Under the pieces are notes generated by a model that worked only from the letters and a program-made list of their open reading frames with translations, did no database searches and was not told where the DNA came from. DNA of 20,229 nucleotides from a virus. The stretch's first letter is position 1, and each line of letters starts with the position of its first letter. A program made the translations under genes and the position numbers. Below, one piece after another: positions 2,419 to 19,057 of the stretch. The stretch is from IMG/VR virus record IMGVR_UViG_3300025617_000143, positions 1-20,229 of that record. The stretch is one strand, 5' to 3'.

Positions 2419-3363
2419 TTATGCTAGTGTTAATAACACTAAGTCAGACCCAATTCCGTACTGTACACCAGCAGTAAAGCGCATGATGACACGAACATTT
2501 TGAGAACCATCTAGGTCAGCCATATCAATAACTTTAACCTCGTTGTGGTCAGATAATAGACCAGTACCGAAGAATAAGTTAGAAGCCTCACCTGCTACGA
2601 TGTGGTCAGATGGCATACCTGGAGCATGCTGAATCTTAACACCATCAAAAGATAGAGCGTTTCCGTTGCTGTACCATTGAGAACCTTTGTTATCTGTACC
2701 AGCAGCACCTAATCCAGAAGCACCGAATCCACCTAATGAACGGATGTATGCTTTGTAAGCTACAGTTGGAGCGTAGATAGTAAGGTCTTCTCTACCATAA
2801 ACAGCAGAAGGAACTGAATCAAGTACGTTCTCTAATAGAGATACGATGTTTGATGAGCTGAATGAAGTCTCAGCCCCGTTAGCAGCATCAACAACAGAAG
2901 CATCAGCAGCCATAAGAGTTGTGAAACCATCAAACTCACCAGCAGTAGCGTTAACACCACCCCAGATGTTTTGCTCAGTCTTCTCAGCTACTTTACCAGC
3001 TACATGAGCGATAAGGTAGTCAGCGAATTTTGGAGGAAGTTGGTCAAATGCACCAACACCCATTTGGATAGCCTCCCAATCAGAACGGAAGTCTTTTTTA
3101 CAAAGCTCAATGTTCACTTGGAACTCTTCTGGTTGAAGAATACGCTCTGTTAAAGTGATGTTTCCTGTGTCAGCGAAGTCACAGCTTGCATCAGCGATTA
3201 ATGAAGAAGCATCAAGTTTCTTGATAACTTCTTTGTACTTTACGTTTGGTTTGATACCAATCGCATTCTCATTCAGGGTCTTTCCTGAAAGTAACGCAGC
3301 AGAGATATACTGTCCAGCAAACTCTCCAGCGTAAGTAGTTGTAATTGAAGTAGTAGTAGCCAT
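2419..3363 (-). CDS. Major capsid protein
   Basis: This 314-aa protein starts MATTTSITTTYAGEFAGQYI. It builds the capsid shell, presumably with an HK97-like fold. The region NITLTERILQPEEFQVNIEL (residues 68-87), followed by CKKDFRSDWEAIQMG, is a pattern I recognise from major capsid proteins of flavobacterial phages. The C-terminal end (MRFTAGVQYGIGSDLVLL) fits the last beta strand of such proteins. The length is typical for a small siphovirus capsid. Context supports the call: a scaffold-like gene lies directly upstream with a 12-nt gap, the protease two genes further, and a strong terminator follows. The N-terminus shows no obvious long delta domain, which fits a separate scaffold. Confidence 0.88.
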   Translation of the reverse strand: MATTTSITTTYAGEFAGQYISAALLSGKTLNENAIGIKPNVKYKEVIKKLDASSLIADASCDFADTGNITLTERILQPEEFQVNIELCKKDFRSDWEAIQMGVGAFDQLPPKFADYLIAHVAGKVAEKTEQNIWGGVNATAGEFDGFTTLMAADASVVDAANGAETSFSSSNIVSLLENVLDSVPSAVYGREDLTIYAPTVAYKAYIRSLGGFGASGLGAAGTDNKGSQWYSNGNALSFDGVKIQHAPGMPSDHIVAGEASNLFFGTGLLSDHNEVKVIDMADLDGSQNVRVIMRFTAGVQYGIGSDLVLLTLA

Positions 3364-4057: not shown

Positions 4058-4679
4058 AATTCTGCACCTTTTGTATAAAGAATATAATGTCCCATACAGT
4101 AGCAGTACCTCCGTTAGCTGTTATCTTCCATTGACTACCGTTGCTTACAAAGTTTGAGTCAGCATAGTATTGGAATATAGCGTGATGGTCGTGAGTAGCA
4201 TCATTGCCTTTAGGGAATGTAATAGTGTCCCTGATTCTATCATAAGGAGTTCCGTTACCGCCCTCAAAGTGCATCTCTAAATAAGTCTGATTAGCATTAG
4301 GAGCAGAATACTTAAACACTACTGTCATCAGGTAAGTGTCATTCTCTGTATCTGCTGTTACTTTCTGCGTTGAAGAATTATAATAATCAACACCTGTGTG
4401 ACTTTTATAAACGCTACCTGCATCATTAGGAAGTACAACCTCTGTATCTAACGCCAACGCTAACTTATTAGATGAGGTATAAGTAGAGTCATCATACCTA
4501 GCCCATCCAAGACTTGAGTCTGCTCCACCTCTAGGATATATCTTTACCCATTCTCCATTCCAAACCGTATAAACACCCGAAGGGGTGGTTACATAAGCAC
4601 CTTCTTCTATCTTGTAAAAGGCTCTTTCCTCTTCGGTGTTTACATCAACCTGTACTTTGTAAGATGTGTTCTTTATCAT
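4050..4679 (-). CDS. Putative head decoration or fibre protein
   Basis: This 209-aa protein has an N-terminal stretch (MIKNTSYKVQVDVNTEEERA) that could anchor it, then a beta-rich C-terminal domain with GWARYDDSTYTSSNKLALAL near residues 58-77 and DIIFFIQKVQNYG at the end. The C-terminal half looks like a jelly-roll domain of the type that marine Bacteroidota phages carry in capsid-associated or fibre proteins. Position between the protease and scaffold genes supports a capsid-surface role. Its stop overlaps the next start by 8 nt, and its own ATG overlaps the stop of the protease gene by 4 nt (4676-4679). Function is inferred from fold impression and context. Confidence 0.6.
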   Translation of the reverse strand: MIKNTSYKVQVDVNTEEERAFYKIEEGAYVTTPSGVYTVWNGEWVKIYPRGGADSSLGWARYDDSTYTSSNKLALALDTEVVLPNDAGSVYKSHTGVDYYNSSTQKVTADTENDTYLMTVVFKYSAPNANQTYLEMHFEGGNGTPYDRIRDTITFPKGNDATHDHHAIFQYYADSNFVSNGSQWKITANGGTATVWDIIFFIQKVQNYG

Positions 4680-5698
4680 TTTTTAACACAATTAGGAACT
4701 CTTTTGCCGTTTTTCATTTTCCATCCATCTTGCTTGTAGCCTTCCCAGCACAAGTCAACATCAATGTTTTCCAGTTCTTCCAATCCTCTTAACTTGGATT
4801 CTACCCAGTTTTTCATGCTTTTGCCTCCCCAAAGCAGATATGATATTGTACCGCATGCCTCTGGCTTTGATGCATCGTAATAGGCTTCTGCCCTGCTGAG
4901 ATATGAGTAAATGCGTTTTAGAGTTGGCAAAGTGAATTTTTCTTTTCGTGCTAATTGTTGCGCACGAACTTTTCCTACTTGGGTAGCGCATTTATTTCCT
5001 AATTCCTGATTTCGTTTAATACCTAATTTAGCGTTGTTAGAGGCACTATCTGGGTAGCCTCCATAAGATTCTAGCTCTACTTCTTCTTCAAGAGCAGATA
5101 ATGCTTCTAAAAGAGCATATTCCGCTTGTAATTCCTCAAAGCAATCTGCGCAAAGCTCTTCCTCAACGTCTTCTTTAGGTCTATCAGAGTTGTCAGTAAA
5201 ATAACCTTCAATAGAAAAGCCCTTAACACGACCTGTTTTAACAAATTCATCCCAAACTTCTTCATTATTTACTTTTACAGACACCATCCAAGTGCCTTTT
5301 GCCATATTTAGGTTGTATAATGCAGATTTATCCTTCTTCTCATCCTCTACAATCCAAGATTCAACTACAGACATGCCTTTTAGTTGATATTCATGCTCTA
5401 GCGTTGAATTATTCTGATTACCTCGTGCTAAAAAGAGTTGAGATGCCTTTCTGACCGTATCTTCGCTAAAAAATATCTCATACTCGTCACCAAGCTCGTT
5501 TCTTCGGTAAATTTTCTTGTTAGGAATGAGTGCTGGACCCATTAGTATGCGTTTTTCATTGTTTACCTCCGCTAATTCTATCTTTTGCGACTTTAAAGCA
5601 ATGAAATCCTCTTCAATAGCAGGGTTTTCTACTATTGAGATAGCCTGAATGCCTGATTCTAGGCTTTCTTCATCTATAAATAGTTCAAAGACTTCCAT
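4676..5698 (-). CDS. XkdF-like prohead serine protease with C-terminal extension
   Basis: This 340-aa protein contains the features of the XkdF-type prohead protease family (S78-like). A candidate catalytic His lies at residue 102 (TLEHEYQLKGM), and a candidate nucleophile Ser at 162 in VKGFSIEGYF. In between are GTWMVSVKVNNEEVWDEF and the acidic strand ESWIVEDE. Such proteases mature the scaffold and capsid during assembly. After an acidic linker with CADC (183-186), a second helical domain spans about 215-303 (YPDSASNNAKLGIKRNQELG through NWVESKL), followed by a C-terminal motif CWEGYKQDGWKMKNGKRVPN CVKK. These extensions are not part of the catalytic core. Gene position next to the scaffold and capsid genes fits. 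Confidence 0.8.
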   Translation of the reverse strand: MEVFELFIDEESLESGIQAISIVENPAIEEDFIALKSQKIELAEVNNEKRILMGPALIPNKKIYRRNELGDEYEIFFSEDTVRKASQLFLARGNQNNSTLEHEYQLKGMSVVESWIVEDEKKDKSALYNLNMAKGTWMVSVKVNNEEVWDEFVKTGRVKGFSIEGYFTDNSDRPKEDVEEELCADCFEELQAEYALLEALSALEEEVELESYGGYPDSASNNAKLGIKRNQELGNKCATQVGKVRAQQLARKEKFTLPTLKRIYSYLSRAEAYYDASKPEACGTISYLLWGGKSMKNWVESKLRGLEELENIDVDLCWEGYKQDGWKMKNGKRVPNCVKK

Positions 5699-5728: not shown

Positions 5729-7891
5729 TTAAATTGAGGCAGCCACTATAGTCTTACGAGCCATCTCCTGAGCTGTGGTTACTTCAGACTCTACTACATA
5801 AGCCTTAATTGGCTTATCTTGCATTGATGCTAGTGCTTGTGCAATTTGTGTTTGCTGAGATGCTCCCACTACATTAAATGAAGGAGACATCATTGCTGCT
5901 CCTCCACCTTGAGATGTTAGCATCGGTGATGGCATTTCAGTTCTAACATACTTTTGTTTAGCAATCATAGCTACATTAGCAAGACCAGCAGCTAAAGCAA
6001 CACCTTGAGCAATTTGCGCTCTAACAGGAGATGTAGGGTCTCCAATAACTAACTGAGAACCATAAGCAAGGAATGCGTTTCTATACACCTCAACAATAGC
6101 TTGAGCCATTTGAACTGCTTTTTGTTGCTTAAATCTCTTTTCGTTTATCTCATTCTCCTTCTCAACAAGGGCAGCTTCGTTTCTGGCTATCTGCTGATTA
6201 ATCTTATCTCTTTCTTCAGCAGAAAGTTGTTCGTTTGCAAGTCGCTTTCTTAGTTCGTCATTAAGAGCAGTTGTTTTATTTTGCTGTATAGCTATCTCTC
6301 TTTCTGCTTGCGCCTGTAACAAACCATTTAACGATGATGCTAGTTCAATGAAACCATCAACCGCAGCTTTTAATGTGTCTTTCTCAGCTTCTGCAATATT
6401 GCTTCTTCTGAGTCTTAGGTCATCAAGTACAATTAATGCTTCATCTAATTTTCTTCCAGCCTCTTCATCAGTTGCTGCTAGTATTCTTAATATCTTAATT
6501 CTGGATTCTAAAACTCTAATATCAGAGTCAAGTTGCTTCTTCTCGGTATCAAGAATCTCTTTTAGTCTTTTATCAGCAAGCTTTGCCTCTAATTCAGCCA
6601 TTCTAATGTTATGACCCTTTCTTGATAAGAATACTTTAAGGTCAGAGTTCCTCTTATCTTGCGCAATCTTATCTTCTCTCTCGGCAGATTCTTTAGCTAA
6701 CTTCTCTTCGGTTTGTTTTATTAGAACAGCATAATATTCAATAATAGCTTGTCTAGCCTGATTGTAACCCTTACCTTGTTTTAATGAGGCTATCTCGTAA
6801 GCTCTTTGAGATTCAAGAGCAGCTATTTCATTCTCGGCTCTTAATTCTTTTGCTTTCTGTATGTATGAATTAAAAACCTTTAAGTTGCTATCAAATATCT
6901 TTTCCTGCTCCTTAGCCTCTTCTGGGCTTAGGAATATATAGTTAGTTCTTTGAGTAGCTTGCTGAATTATAGATTCTCTTTCATTAGCTACATAAGCTAG
7001 ACCAGAACCTAGTTTTGATAGAAGAACAAGAGATTCTTTAATAATTTCATTCTCCTTCTCTAAATTTATTCTTGTTTGGTTTAAGTCTCTATTATATCCT
7101 TTTCTATCCTGAAGTTCAATTATATTAGCTATTGCTTCATTATTTTTTATAATCTGCTCTTCGGTGATATTTATTCCTTTATTTACATCTTCAATATCTT
7201 TTTTGGCTTGAAGTAATTCTTTTTCCTTCTCTTCTAATAGGATTACTTTTTTTATGTATTCATCAGCTAAAGCCACTTGCTCTGCTTCTGTTAAGTTTTT
7301 ATTTTCAAGTATCTTTTGTAGATTCTTCTCTCCAGCAGCTAGAGACTTTAACAGCATCAGTCTTCTTTCTGTTGGAGCTTCTGAATCTAAAAAGTTTTGT
7401 CTCAATTCCTTTAATGTTCTACCTTGAAGTATAGCCTCTGCGTTAAATTCTTTTACGGCATCAGTAGCTTCTTTTTGACTCTTTCTAAATATCTCAAAGG
7501 CAGCAATGGCAATTTGAACCCCAACAACAACACCCAAAGGACCTATAAATGCATCTTTAAGTTTTCCTATAACAGTCTCTCCCTCCTTAACACCATCAGC
7601 CATCTGTCCAAGTATAGTAGTCAACTGCGTTAAGTTGTTACCCATACCCTGAATACCATAAGGAGCATCCGATATAGTACGACCAAATTCAAGAACTGCT
7701 GTGTTTGCAAGACCAGAACTTACGCCTGTACCCTTAACTTTTTCGTTAAGAATATCAAGTTCATCCTGCATCTTCTTAATGGCAGTTGACGACTTAACAA
7801 ATCCTTTGGTAAGCCCCTCAATCTTAACCTTACCATCTTCAGTTCTTACCTGAAGGTTAAATGTTATATCTCTAATTTCTTGGTTTGCCAT
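5729..7891 (-). CDS. Tail tape measure protein
   Basis: This is the longest gene in the window (720 aa). It spans the tail lumen and sets tail length; at about 0.15 nm per residue it would correspond to a tail of roughly 110 nm. The N-terminal part has the segment VLEFGRTISDAPYGIQGMGN (66-85), which I recognise from tape measure proteins of Bacteroidota phages and prophages. A hydrophobic segment follows at about 115-134 (GPLGVVVGVQIAIAAFEIF), then several hundred residues of charged coiled coil. A second small-residue hydrophobic stretch (AQGVALAAGLANVAMIA) lies near the C-terminus. The start overlaps the end of a 50-aa gene by 20 nt. Confidence 0.85.
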   Translation of the reverse strand: MANQEIRDITFNLQVRTEDGKVKIEGLTKGFVKSSTAIKKMQDELDILNEKVKGTGVSSGLANTAVLEFGRTISDAPYGIQGMGNNLTQLTTILGQMADGVKEGETVIGKLKDAFIGPLGVVVGVQIAIAAFEIFRKSQKEATDAVKEFNAEAILQGRTLKELRQNFLDSEAPTERRLMLLKSLAAGEKNLQKILENKNLTEAEQVALADEYIKKVILLEEKEKELLQAKKDIEDVNKGINITEEQIIKNNEAIANIIELQDRKGYNRDLNQTRINLEKENEIIKESLVLLSKLGSGLAYVANERESIIQQATQRTNYIFLSPEEAKEQEKIFDSNLKVFNSYIQKAKELRAENEIAALESQRAYEIASLKQGKGYNQARQAIIEYYAVLIKQTEEKLAKESAEREDKIAQDKRNSDLKVFLSRKGHNIRMAELEAKLADKRLKEILDTEKKQLDSDIRVLESRIKILRILAATDEEAGRKLDEALIVLDDLRLRRSNIAEAEKDTLKAAVDGFIELASSLNGLLQAQAEREIAIQQNKTTALNDELRKRLANEQLSAEERDKINQQIARNEAALVEKENEINEKRFKQQKAVQMAQAIVEVYRNAFLAYGSQLVIGDPTSPVRAQIAQGVALAAGLANVAMIAKQKYVRTEMPSPMLTSQGGGAAMMSPSFNVVGASQQTQIAQALASMQDKPIKAYVVESEVTTAQEMARKTIVAASI

Positions 7892-11018: not shown

Positions 11019-11503
11019 TACTTGTTAGTTTTTTTATTTATTTCAGTTGTAATTCTTACTATTTCAGCTTGTATTACATCTGCTAAGTCTGCATCTATGC
11101 GAGGTGCAAAATCATTTTTAATATCTGTTAGCATATTATTACCCTTAATACCGTTCTTACCGATATTTCTAGCAATGATATACGCTAAACTTCCTATTCT
11201 ATATTTCTTATTGGCATAACGCTCGCTTCGGATAGTCATACCCTTCTTATTCTCTAACCACTCTACTATCTTCCCAATAGGAGGTGCTTGCTTACCAGGC
11301 TCTCTACCGCCAGATATTACTTCTATGTACTTCCAACCCTCTATCTGTAAGCTTCTAGGTGTTACTTTTTTAATTAGTGTATTAGCAGCCTTACCACTAG
11401 CATACTTGTTGTCTTTAGTTAGCCTAGTTTTTATAGCATCCTTTACTTGGTCGCCATAGTAGTCTAATACTTTTTCTATTTCAGCATCTAAACTGACTAG
11501 CAT
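11018..11503 (-). CDS. HK97 gp10-like head-tail joining protein
   Basis: This 161-aa basic protein starts MLVSLDAEIEKVLDYYGDQV. Features of the HK97 gp10-like neck family are visible: the sequence KYASGKAANTL (about 33-43), then a strand with EVISGGREPGKQAPPIGKIVEW (two parts, 62-83), and helix SLAYIIARNIGKNGIKGNN. Members act in the neck between head and tail or in tail completion. It follows the tail terminator-like gene with a 7-nt overlap (ATGCTAG) and precedes tail genes, which fits this role. Confidence 0.65.
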   Translation of the reverse strand: MLVSLDAEIEKVLDYYGDQVKDAIKTRLTKDNKYASGKAANTLIKKVTPRSLQIEGWKYIEVISGGREPGKQAPPIGKIVEWLENKKGMTIRSERYANKKYRIGSLAYIIARNIGKNGIKGNNMLTDIKNDFAPRIDADLADVIQAEIVRITTEINKKTNK

Positions 11504-11961
11504 ATAGAAAGGTTGTTAGGTACTTCAATAATTAAATCAACTCCCCAGCCAGCTAGGTCGTTCTCAAACCTGTCTTTAAAGGGTTCGCATACTGGGTCAC
11601 CGACTAATTGAAATTTATTAGTATATAAGTCACCCCTTTTTAGGTGGCTGATTAGTTCGTTGGCAATTTGTAATTGTGTATTATATACATCAATAAGATT
11701 GCTATCATCCTGTCTATCACCTTCGTCATTAGCGTTAAAATCCTTGCTGTAATCTACTACATCTAGGAATAGCATGTTAATGGTAACTCTTATTGTATTA
11801 TCGGTTACTGTGCTGTTGCCTAATACAAAGTGAGATAGTGGGAATATAGTAGTCTTGTTCAAGTCTACCTGAGATATATCACCAAATGTTACATAATTAA
11901 CAATAGGGTTTTCTCTAAGAAAACTTTTTATCTCTGTTATTACATCGTAAATACTTGTCAT
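11497..11961 (-). CDS. Putative tail terminator or neck protein
   Basis: This 154-aa protein starts MTSIYDVITEIKSFLRENPI. The conserved-looking end includes LIDVYNTQLQIANELISHLK (about 88-107), RGDLYTNKFQLVGDPVCEPF and FENDLAGWGVDLIIEVPNN. The alpha/beta layout with a final long strand, the length, and the position directly before a gp10-like gene fit tail terminator or tail completion proteins. Its ATG overlaps the stop of the -1 frameshift extension of the upstream gene by 4 nt (ATGA), which supports coupling to the frameshifted product. Known only by pattern and context. Confidence 0.55.
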   Translation of the reverse strand: MTSIYDVITEIKSFLRENPIVNYVTFGDISQVDLNKTTIFPLSHFVLGNSTVTDNTIRVTINMLFLDVVDYSKDFNANDEGDRQDDSNLIDVYNTQLQIANELISHLKRGDLYTNKFQLVGDPVCEPFKDRFENDLAGWGVDLIIEVPNNLSIC

Positions 11962-12223
11962 TTATATGATTCTTTTATTCTTTTTGCTTCTAATTCGTTT
12001 TTCTCACTCTCAAAGGACAACCAAGTCAGACATTTATATAAGCCCTGTTCTGCAATGTTGTCAAATTTTGTGACATCACCTCCAGCAAGAGCATATATTG
12101 ATTGATACCAACCCCACTTCTCTCCGAAAGCTTGCTCTCTACTTCTGAAATGTCCTGTTCCTTCACCTTTTGAAGAGAAGAGTCCAGAGAATGTTTCGCT
12201 AATTTCATTCCTAAACGATAAAA
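11958..12223 (-). CDS. -1 frame extension of the tail assembly chaperone gene
   Basis: In the -1 frame relative to the 12754 gene, the stretch from the T-run (12220-12228) to TGA at 11958 is open for 87 codons. It reads like a real protein: LSFRNEISETFSGLF, FGEKWGWYQSIYALAGGD, FDNIAEQGLYKCLTWLSFES, then KNELEAKRIKESYK. It has no start codon of its own: upstream in this frame a TAG appears before any ATG. Its stop lies inside an ATGA overlap with the next gene. A -1 slip on TTTTTTT would give a 265-aa fusion product. Paired short and frameshifted proteins are the hallmark of siphovirus tail assembly chaperones. A one-base mutation or sequencing error in the homopolymer is the alternative. Confidence 0.8.
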
Positions 12224-12754
12224 AAAAACCATAGCTCCTATGGCAATACTCGTAGGCATGTACCTAAGTAGGTCTGCATATTTCTCACTACCCTCATAAT
12301 CCTCTATTCTATATAAGTCCTTATTAGAACCTATAATCGGTCTGTATAAAACAGCCATAGCTCTATGAACTTCTTTCCAATCTGAGATGTATGAATCTAA
12401 ATCCACATACTCACCAAAGGTTAAGTTCTTTAGGTTTGGGTGAAATCCAAATTCTATAGTTGCCCCATCACTACCCCTCATAGTAAACCTCTTTACCAAA
12501 GGAGTCTCCTCAGACAAACATTTATTTAGTTGAATAAGGATAGACTCAAATGCCGACATCGGTAACTTGTAACTATCTTTTAGTTGCAACCCACAGAATA
12601 TCTCTAGTGCTTTGAGATTTAAGAAGTCTGTTGACTCCTCAGAGTCACTATCAATATTCTCTACCACTTGCATATACCTTTGGTACTTATCAAATGATAT
12701 ATAATCTAATCTTGCTGGTACTTTTACTTCTATGTCTAATACTTCACTCATCAT
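12026..12754 (-). CDS. Putative tail assembly chaperone, zero frame
   Basis: The zero frame gives 242 aa from ATG 12754 (MMSEVLDIEVKVPARLDYIS). The first 178 residues contain the protein-like blocks FHPNLKNLTFGEYVDLDSYI and HRAMAVLYRPIIG, a pattern I associate with tail-assembly proteins of Bacteroidota phages. At residues 175-178 (MVFF) the codons GTT TTT TTT T form a run of nine T. After it, the zero-frame sequence (RLGMKLAKHSLDSSLQK...) looks less natural than the -1 frame, which continues the protein. The gene opens the structural operon and sits several genes upstream of the tape measure; in most siphoviruses the chaperone is immediately upstream of it. The short and long forms would help load tail tube subunits around the tape measure. 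Confidence 0.65.
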   Translation of the reverse strand: MMSEVLDIEVKVPARLDYISFDKYQRYMQVVENIDSDSEESTDFLNLKALEIFCGLQLKDSYKLPMSAFESILIQLNKCLSEETPLVKRFTMRGSDGATIEFGFHPNLKNLTFGEYVDLDSYISDWKEVHRAMAVLYRPIIGSNKDLYRIEDYEGSEKYADLLRYMPTSIAIGAMVFFYRLGMKLAKHSLDSSLQKVKEQDISEVESKLSERSGVGINQYMLLLEVMSQNLTTLQNRAYINV

Positions 12755-17845: not shown

Positions 17846-19057
17846 TTATCTAATTACATACCTACCTAAAGATTTTCCTTGTACTAAATACTGGAGGGCA
17901 TATCTAATGGCATCTAGGTAGTGGTCATACGCCATTACTGGCTTTGCGTTACGCTCTTGCCAAACATAATTGTTAAGCTCTCTGACTATGCCGTGAGAGT
18001 TCTTATCTATTATCATTTCATAGTCTTGCACTAAAGCAATACCAGAAAGTATAGAGCCTTTCTTCTTAACAGCTCCTCGTATATTCAAGTCCATATTCTT
18101 TAGTTCCTGAATCAATCTAGGTTCTGCTGAATCACAAATGATTAAGTCTAGCCCACAGTACTGCCTATTCTTACTTGCAATCTGCGAAGTAGTCATATTC
18201 TTTTGTCCATAGCATTCTCTTACCCACATCTTCTTCTCTTCAGGGTCTACACTAACCTGCACCAATGTAGTAGGGTCAGTAGAGAAACCAAAATCCTGCC
18301 CAAAGACTGTAAGCTCCTTGTGCTGGTAATCACCTATTCTCCAGTTCTTGTAGATAGTACCCTCTGCTTTATTAAGCCAACCCCCTAGTATAGCATGCTG
18401 ATATTGGTCAGGTCTTCTACGCTTCATATCCATAACCTGTTCCAAGAACGACTCTGATAGGTTGTCCTTGTTGTCCATGTAGGTAGTATGAATGTAAGTA
18501 GCATTACCTTCTTTACCATTCCATCCCTCTGGAACTCCTATATTCTGAAACCAGCGTTGATATATCCAATGTTCTTTAGTAGTAGGGTTCAATATTAAAA
18601 TACATCGGTTCTGTCTTTCTTGTACCCTAACCGATAAATCTATCTTGTTAAAGGTATCTTCATCAATAAGTTCTTCTGCCTCATCCAACACAAAGGTTGT
18701 AATACCATTTAGAGACTTCAGGGCAGCCGTTTGATTACCACTTGATGTTCTAATACCTTTAAATATAATAGAGTTCTTAGTGGTCAGATTTATAATCTCA
18801 TCCTTAGTAATCCTAAAGTCATTCTGCACACCCATTAACTCAATCTTCTCTACGAACTCAGGGATAATAGATGTTTGTGCAGAGGTCATTGTATATCTAC
18901 TGAAAAGTACCTTGTGTCCTTCTTCATAGGTTAGGTTAAGTAGGAATACAGCAACCCCAAAGGACTTACCTGAACCCCTACCTCCAGTAACAACAAAATA
19001 CCGACTATCATCTTGAAATAGCGGTACATACTTTTCATTCAACACTACATTACTCAT
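17846..19057 (-). CDS. terL: Terminase large subunit
   Basis: This 403-aa protein is the ATP-driven DNA packaging motor with a nuclease domain. Walker A is VVTGGRGSGKSFG (22-34), Walker B is TTFVLDEAEEL (120-130), and ILNPTTKEHW (155-164) fits the coupling motif. The RNase H-like nuclease shows the acidic residues expected: D255 in GQDFGFSTDPT, D309 in IICDSAEPR, and D378/D382 in YDHYLDAIRYAL. Architecture and length fit the Terminase_3 type (PBSX/T4-like). The ATG overlaps the stop of the small subunit gene by 8 nt (ATGAGTAA). In most phages a portal gene follows; here a terminator and the accessory operons do. Confidence 0.95.
   Translation of the reverse strand: MSNVVLNEKYVPLFQDDSRYFVVTGGRGSGKSFGVAVFLLNLTYEEGHKVLFSRYTMTSAQTSIIPEFVEKIELMGVQNDFRITKDEIINLTTKNSIIFKGIRTSSGNQTAALKSLNGITTFVLDEAEELIDEDTFNKIDLSVRVQERQNRCILILNPTTKEHWIYQRWFQNIGVPEGWNGKEGNATYIHTTYMDNKDNLSESFLEQVMDMKRRRPDQYQHAILGGWLNKAEGTIYKNWRIGDYQHKELTVFGQDFGFSTDPTTLVQVSVDPEEKKMWVRECYGQKNMTTSQIASKNRQYCGLDLIICDSAEPRLIQELKNMDLNIRGAVKKKGSILSGIALVQDYEMIIDKNSHGIVRELNNYVWQERNAKPVMAYDHYLDAIRYALQYLVQGKSLGRYVIR

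Follow-up and report, generated by a model that had tools for sequence, protein, structure and literature searches.

Closest Described Systems

Frameshifted tail assembly chaperones are a textbook example of ribosomal recoding. In systems of the lambda type, the short form binds the tape measure protein and the long form recruits the tail tube protein; neither of them is found in the virion. The frameshift of lambda G/GT (Xu, Hendrix, Duda, 2004) is covered in a review (PMC5009743). Transcriptional slippage on a U run has been demonstrated for Shigella mxiE and related type III secretion genes (PMC1088944, PMC5009743), and, according to Larsen et al. (2000), as cited in PMC3711429, dnaX homologues use either polymerase or ribosomal slippage. 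In the open literature, tail assembly chaperones and transcriptional slippage were found together only in two general studies and one tool paper, and neither a tail chaperone made by transcriptional slippage nor a description of the Bacteroidota gene family reported here was found there (subscription papers were outside the scope).

The locus analyzed here lies on the minus strand of a stretch of 20,229 nt, referred to as the window, from the IMG/VR record IMGVR_UViG_3300025617_000143. It resembles lambda G/GT in that two products have a common N-terminus, a C-terminal domain is encoded in the -1 frame, the gene is a small one of the tail module, and the downstream gene abuts tightly. Unlike in lambda, the slip site in this family is a T9 or T10 homopolymer, the zero frame continues for 23–87 codons and is kept open, four genes separate the chaperone-like gene from the tape-measure-like gene in the window, no detectable similarity in sequence or fold links it to known chaperones, and the slip may be transcriptional. 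As in Shigella mxiE, a single inserted U would bring two overlapping frames together in one longer protein, but the genes are unrelated and slippage was shown there, whereas it is inferred here. For dnaX, the parallel lies in slippage on A9 in Thermus thermophilus versus ribosomal frameshifting in E. coli, by which homologous genes may arrive at one and the same pair of products, to be compared with the T9 families and the T7 clade described below; dnaX differs in being a cellular gene with an A run and a shorter frameshift product. PHROG 32199, represented by gene 38 of phage P12024S, has a homologous zero-frame protein, and its gene likewise shows T9 and the -1 frame, but P12024S_38 and _39 are annotated as separate hypothetical proteins, and neither a function nor a frameshift is recorded for them.

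Organization of the Gene and Its Two Predicted Products

The zero-frame gene (12026..12754, minus strand, read from 12754 to 12026) comprises 242 codons and a stop and encodes the short, gpG-like product. Its first 178 codons (12221..12754, minus strand), ending with ...AMVFF, are common to both products, and 64 further residues complete the protein of 242 aa. The presumed slip site is a homopolymer of exactly nine T (12220..12228, minus strand; G-TTTTTTTTT-A) in the context ATG GTT TTT TTT TAT CGT TTA GGA. Within this run, the in-frame heptamer T_TTT_TTT (12221..12227, minus strand) represents a possible ribosomal slip site. Re-reading of one T would lead into a T-domain-like extension in the -1 frame (11958..12221, minus strand; 87 codons and a stop), which reads LSFRNEISETF...ALAGGDVTKFDNIAEQGLYKCLTWLSFESEKNELEAKRIKESYK and would give a fused product of 178 + 87 = 265 aa. 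The -1 frame ends with a TGA stop at 11960-11958 inside an ATGA overlap (11958..11961, minus strand), in which the ATG of the next gene starts at 11961. This gene (11497..11961, minus strand) encodes a protein of 154 aa that belongs to PHROG 30964 and has no known function. The zero-frame stop, on the other side, leaves a gap of 64 nt to the next gene. Both frames are thus open over a dual-coded stretch (12026..12220, minus strand), formed by the zero-frame tail of 64 codons plus stop and the -1 frame. The third frame, which would be entered after loss of one T, immediately meets a TAG (12211..12213, minus strand). Upstream of the slip point, the -1 frame of the window is open for just 14 codons. 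The coordinates, the nine T, the pair of 242 and 265 aa, the ATGA overlap, and the 64-nt gap given in the first-pass annotation, which had proposed a -1 frameshift on this run, were all found again on the letters.

Conservation of the T Run and of the Two-Frame Layout

A search with the zero-frame protein retrieved 69 loci in IMG/VR, most of which were homologous over the whole length of the zero-frame gene. The -1 domain was located in the -1 frame in 69/69 of them, and the run was exactly T9 in all 68 loci of this first scan that covered the site. Alignment queries with the -1 domain increased the number of relatives in IMG/VR to at least ~595. The family, whose host phylum is Bacteroidota, is common in viromes (hundreds of contigs). 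For a detailed comparison we used 210 distinct loci from IMG/VR, two MAGs, and the cultured Nonlabens phage P12024S. At the site, 153 of these loci carried T9, 56 T10, and one T12, while a shorter run was never found, and the two frames stood in the same -1 relation in 210/210. These loci are related and not independent. Since their ranking was based on how similar they were to the -1 or the zero-frame protein, and not on the run, the run is not an ascertainment effect. Runs of at least nine T were retained in relatives with as little as about 29% protein identity and also in the cultured Nonlabens phages; the T10 runs arose in three registers. Elsewhere in the coding sequence of these loci (779 kb), T runs of at least nine are avoided, with only six occurrences compared to about 60 in synonymous shuffles. 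The cultured Bacteroidota phages 6H, B40-8, P2559S, and the part of B124-14 that was inspected showed no such T-run layout.

The single T12 is located at 2991-3002 of locus L108 (CTT TTT TTT TTT TAC). When three TTT codons occur in other members, a T directly before them is avoided in nearly all cases, which keeps the run at T10.

In P12024S, T9 is found at CTTTTTTTTTATC, followed by a -1 frame of 81 codons (L071:5917-6611, corresponding to JQ823122.1 23136-23830). Very probably, genes _38 and _39 of this phage are one recoded gene and _39 was given an artificial start. Annotation pipelines miss the recoded gene, which is how this cultured relative came to be listed with two hypothetical genes.

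Homopolymers are error-prone and mutable, and errors in sequencing or assembly, mutation of the frame, or phase variation at a contingency run were considered as alternatives. As the first-pass annotation had pointed out, homologues that have eight T and read through in a single frame would reveal an error or mutation; a search among close homologues turned up none, and no in-frame phase variant was seen among the 210 loci. Independent assemblies from many samples, the cultured phage, and a single-contig genome of 3.9 Mb (L253) concur, and selection acts on both frames (see below). Error, mutation, and phase variation were therefore rejected on the basis of 210 loci in the same frame relation, and we consider them barely conceivable; the two-frame layout is real.

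The strong conservation of the -1 frame in its own right would also be expected if it were a separate overlapping gene, translated without recoding by internal initiation or translational coupling. In nearly all loci, however, the slip site is precisely where its homology sets in, only 4 to 36 codons are open upstream of this site, a conserved start is absent, and an invariant T run would be needless. This explanation is very improbable. The conservation of frames and run strongly supports the view that the T run is the site of a programmed change into the -1 frame, by either of the two routes discussed below, and we regard this as nearly certain.

Selection on Both Reading Frames

The zero-frame tail comprises 52–87 codons in the main clade and 23–43 codons in more distant clades. 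In most members, the two frames overlap for 52 to 67 codons, which makes the family an unusually clear case of dual coding. In 134 sequences, the zero-frame tail had a mean length of 62.6 codons, compared to 12.8 codons after synonymous shuffling of the -1 codons. Substitutions were counted change by change in 49 sequence-disjoint pairs, which gives approximate rates. Relative to neutral changes, those altering the -1 protein occurred at a rate of 0.55 (0.43–0.66), those altering the zero-frame protein at 0.71 (0.55–0.90), and those creating zero-frame stops at 0.07 (0–0.13). A different, earlier count had been conditioned on equal zero-frame length and was left out of the claim on nonsense changes. 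Purifying selection acts on both frames. Because stops are so much rarer than altering changes, the zero-frame tail is strongly kept open, whereas its sequence is only moderately constrained. The earlier description of the zero-frame continuation as less natural was wrong in this respect, and the codon-level analysis of both frames suggested at the same time indicated selection on the -1 frame and on the zero-frame tail alike. Since the zero-frame tail is kept open as well, the data point to programmed recoding with a long dual-coded stretch.

Part of the visible zero-frame conservation is due to the other frame, as the zero-frame motif GVGINQYM mirrors the -1 motif KWGWYQSIY. Conservation of the zero frame as a mere by-product of the -1 frame was rejected, as its openness lies far above that of the synonymous shuffles and nonsense changes are depleted.

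Diverged Relatives in Bacteroidota

Whole-genome searches in Bacteroidota identified prophage versions with about 20–35% identity, which carry family members of the same downstream genes; tblastn searches with the diverged forms against the phage collection gave no match. Profile comparison of the zero-frame proteins supported the relationship with probabilities of 97% (L261), 95% (L262), 94% (L263), and 69% (L264). T9 is retained in ten of the diverged loci (L253, L254, L258, L260, L261, L262, L264, L270, L279, L280). In seven of them (L254, L261, L262, L264, L270, L279, L280) the run begins at codon position 3, with GGT, GCT, ACT, or TAT followed by TTT TTT TTG/TTA, compared to GTT TTT TTT TGT in the position-2 register. 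Loss of an upstream T thus goes along with gain of a downstream T. The leucine codon that completes the run is TTR in 7/7 position-3 loci (product of background frequencies 0.003, uncorrected for relatedness or for the constraint of the -1 frame), and this holds even where TTT makes up just 24% of the Phe codons of the genome. A comparison of the two run ends with each other is weak at lineage level, because the register moved in few independent lineages, and it represents support rather than proof.

Shorter runs were found in L263 (T8) and in one clade formed by L271, L273, L274, L275, and L277, which are weak matches (E about 1e-4) and have the bare heptamer in CAT TTT TTT A (T7). In this T7 clade, a -1 domain (EKFKYINTINSLAGGDITKW) is present in the same layout. 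The clade may be regarded as a natural ribosomal counterpart of the T9 genes, and a ribosomal slip would be the simpler reading there. The sole candidates for a one-frame form are L255, L256, L259, and L281, very distant weak matches without a T run. In these (L255:1012-1668, L256:1075-1650, L259:967-1704, and L281:949-1707, reverse complement), the T-like domain is continuous with the N-terminal part.

Whether tailed phages and prophages of Bacteroidota set the ratio of the two chaperone products by polymerase slippage on T9/T10 rather than through the ribosome, with a phylum-wide series of T9 (polymerase), T7 (ribosome), and one-frame forms, is a proposal for which we see even chances. If it is true, the three forms would show how a single assembly problem has been solved in a series of natural ways.

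Route of the Frame Switch

Two routes could produce the long form. In the first one, RNA polymerase would slip on the A9 template, giving rise to some mRNAs with ten U, from which the long form would be translated with no need for the ribosome to shift frame; mRNAs lacking one U would run into a stop within a few codons. One gene would in this way give two proteins with 178 common N-terminal residues, the zero-frame product of 242 residues and a product of 265 residues ending in the -1 frame. According to Baranov et al. (2005), selection against slippage is usually seen from a length of nine, and a run of 9A/9T whose length is conserved among homologues is very likely to serve purposeful transcriptional slippage (PMC1088944). 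The family meets this description of a homopolymer of about nine or more A/T with conserved length in 210/210 loci, the exceptions at phylum scale being the one T7 clade and the one T8 locus.

The second route is -1 ribosomal frameshifting at T_TTT_TTT (GTT TTT TTT), as in lambda gpG/gpGT, with the extra T being constrained by the protein or raising efficiency. This route cannot be excluded by sequence, because any T9 contains the in-frame heptamer, and the heptamer was indeed in frame at every T run examined. In addition, the run of the T7 clade consists of the heptamer alone, and the tail-chaperone cases in the review cited above are ribosomal (PMC5009743). Of the two extra T, one occupies position 2 of a V/L/I codon and the other position 1 of a Y/W/C/L codon, and protein constraint could partly fix them. 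The 210 loci, on the other hand, contained no other slippery heptamer and no T7 or T8, and in the diverged T9 lineages the upstream loss of a T is paired with a downstream gain. Among 83 representatives, a stimulatory RNA structure was not found downstream or upstream of the site (mean folding z about 0; pseudoknots were outside the model), nor was one found in the T7 loci, and Shine-Dalgarno-like motifs were present in only 17 of the 83. Bacteroidota hosts rarely use Shine-Dalgarno sequences, as stated in the abstract of PMC8710568. We consider ribosomal frameshifting a possibility that must be taken seriously, but less likely than polymerase slippage as the main route.

Polymerase slippage is favored because the run length is kept at nine or ten while the codon register moves, and because ribosomal stimulators are absent. 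We assign a probability of roughly 0.58 to RNA polymerase slippage being the main route of the frame switch. The first-pass annotation had mentioned that a run of this length could act by such slippage; this idea gained support, but it remains unproven, and the T7 clade fits the ribosome. In the absence of transcript, RNA-read, or peptide data, the slippage itself and the ratio of the products are inferred. If polymerase slippage is confirmed, it shows that the ratio needed for phage assembly can be determined by the polymerase instead of the ribosome, and this would occur in bacteria that rarely use Shine-Dalgarno pairing.

Loss of one T leads to a stop within 2–7 residues in 210/210 loci, in 203 of them at the same place. 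This suggests a fit with slippage in both directions, but is partly forced by coding: at upstream positions, 39% meet a stop of this type within four codons anyway. Being largely forced by dual coding, the third-frame stop is no more than suggestive. It was also observed in most of the diverged lineages.

Putative Function as Tail Assembly Chaperones

By analogy, the two products most likely work in the manner of lambda gpG and gpGT. Binding of the tape measure protein would be the task of the shared part, and recruitment of tail tube subunits that of the -1 domain. The chaperone role is inferred from three features, namely a layout with two products, the size of the gene, and its location in the tail region, and binding and recruitment are likewise inferred, as protein data are not available. 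Judged by layout and conservation alone, the gene qualifies, as it is small and its -1 shift joins a second domain onto an N-terminal part that is common to both forms. Homology provided no such support. No member had a relevant match in Pfam, and the zero-frame protein matched PHROG 32199 (E 3.4e-11), whose function is unknown. A predicted model of the zero-frame protein (mean pLDDT 77) found no match in a fold search of the PDB at E ≤ 0.001. In BFVD, the model retrieved the P12024S relative and proteins of uncultured phages; a viral fold match named tape-measure chaperone was weak (E 0.15). The designation as tail assembly chaperone gene, used from the start, is thus backed by layout and position, but not by a match to a family, profile, or solved structure. 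The gene is G/GT-like in layout, and membership by homology has not been shown.

Genomic Neighborhood

Chaperone genes of the lambda type stand between those for the major tail protein and the tape measure protein. The chaperone-like gene here follows the terminase genes instead, with the terminase large subunit (17846..19057, minus strand) as upstream neighbor, and is located upstream of the tape-measure-like gene with four genes between them. Downstream, the order is the 154-aa gene, a 161-aa gene, two large genes, the gene for a probable tape measure protein of 720 aa (5729..7891, minus strand), a gene with a head maturation protease match, a capsid-like gene, and a portal gene. The tape-measure and capsid labels are based on appearance or weak matches only, that of the 720-aa protein on appearance alone. 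In the relatives that were read, members of the PHROG 30964 family also come after the chaperone-like gene.

Between 5729 and 12754 of the window, the module order is unusual and partly common to P12024S: the chaperone-like gene is placed after small early genes, and the capsid and portal genes are located further downstream of the tape-measure-like gene. The gene at 4676-5698 encodes a protein of 340 aa with matches to head maturation protease PHROGs in its N-terminal half. Several other PHROGs, of unknown function, are matched by its last 30–70 residues, which suggests a fusion of two domains.
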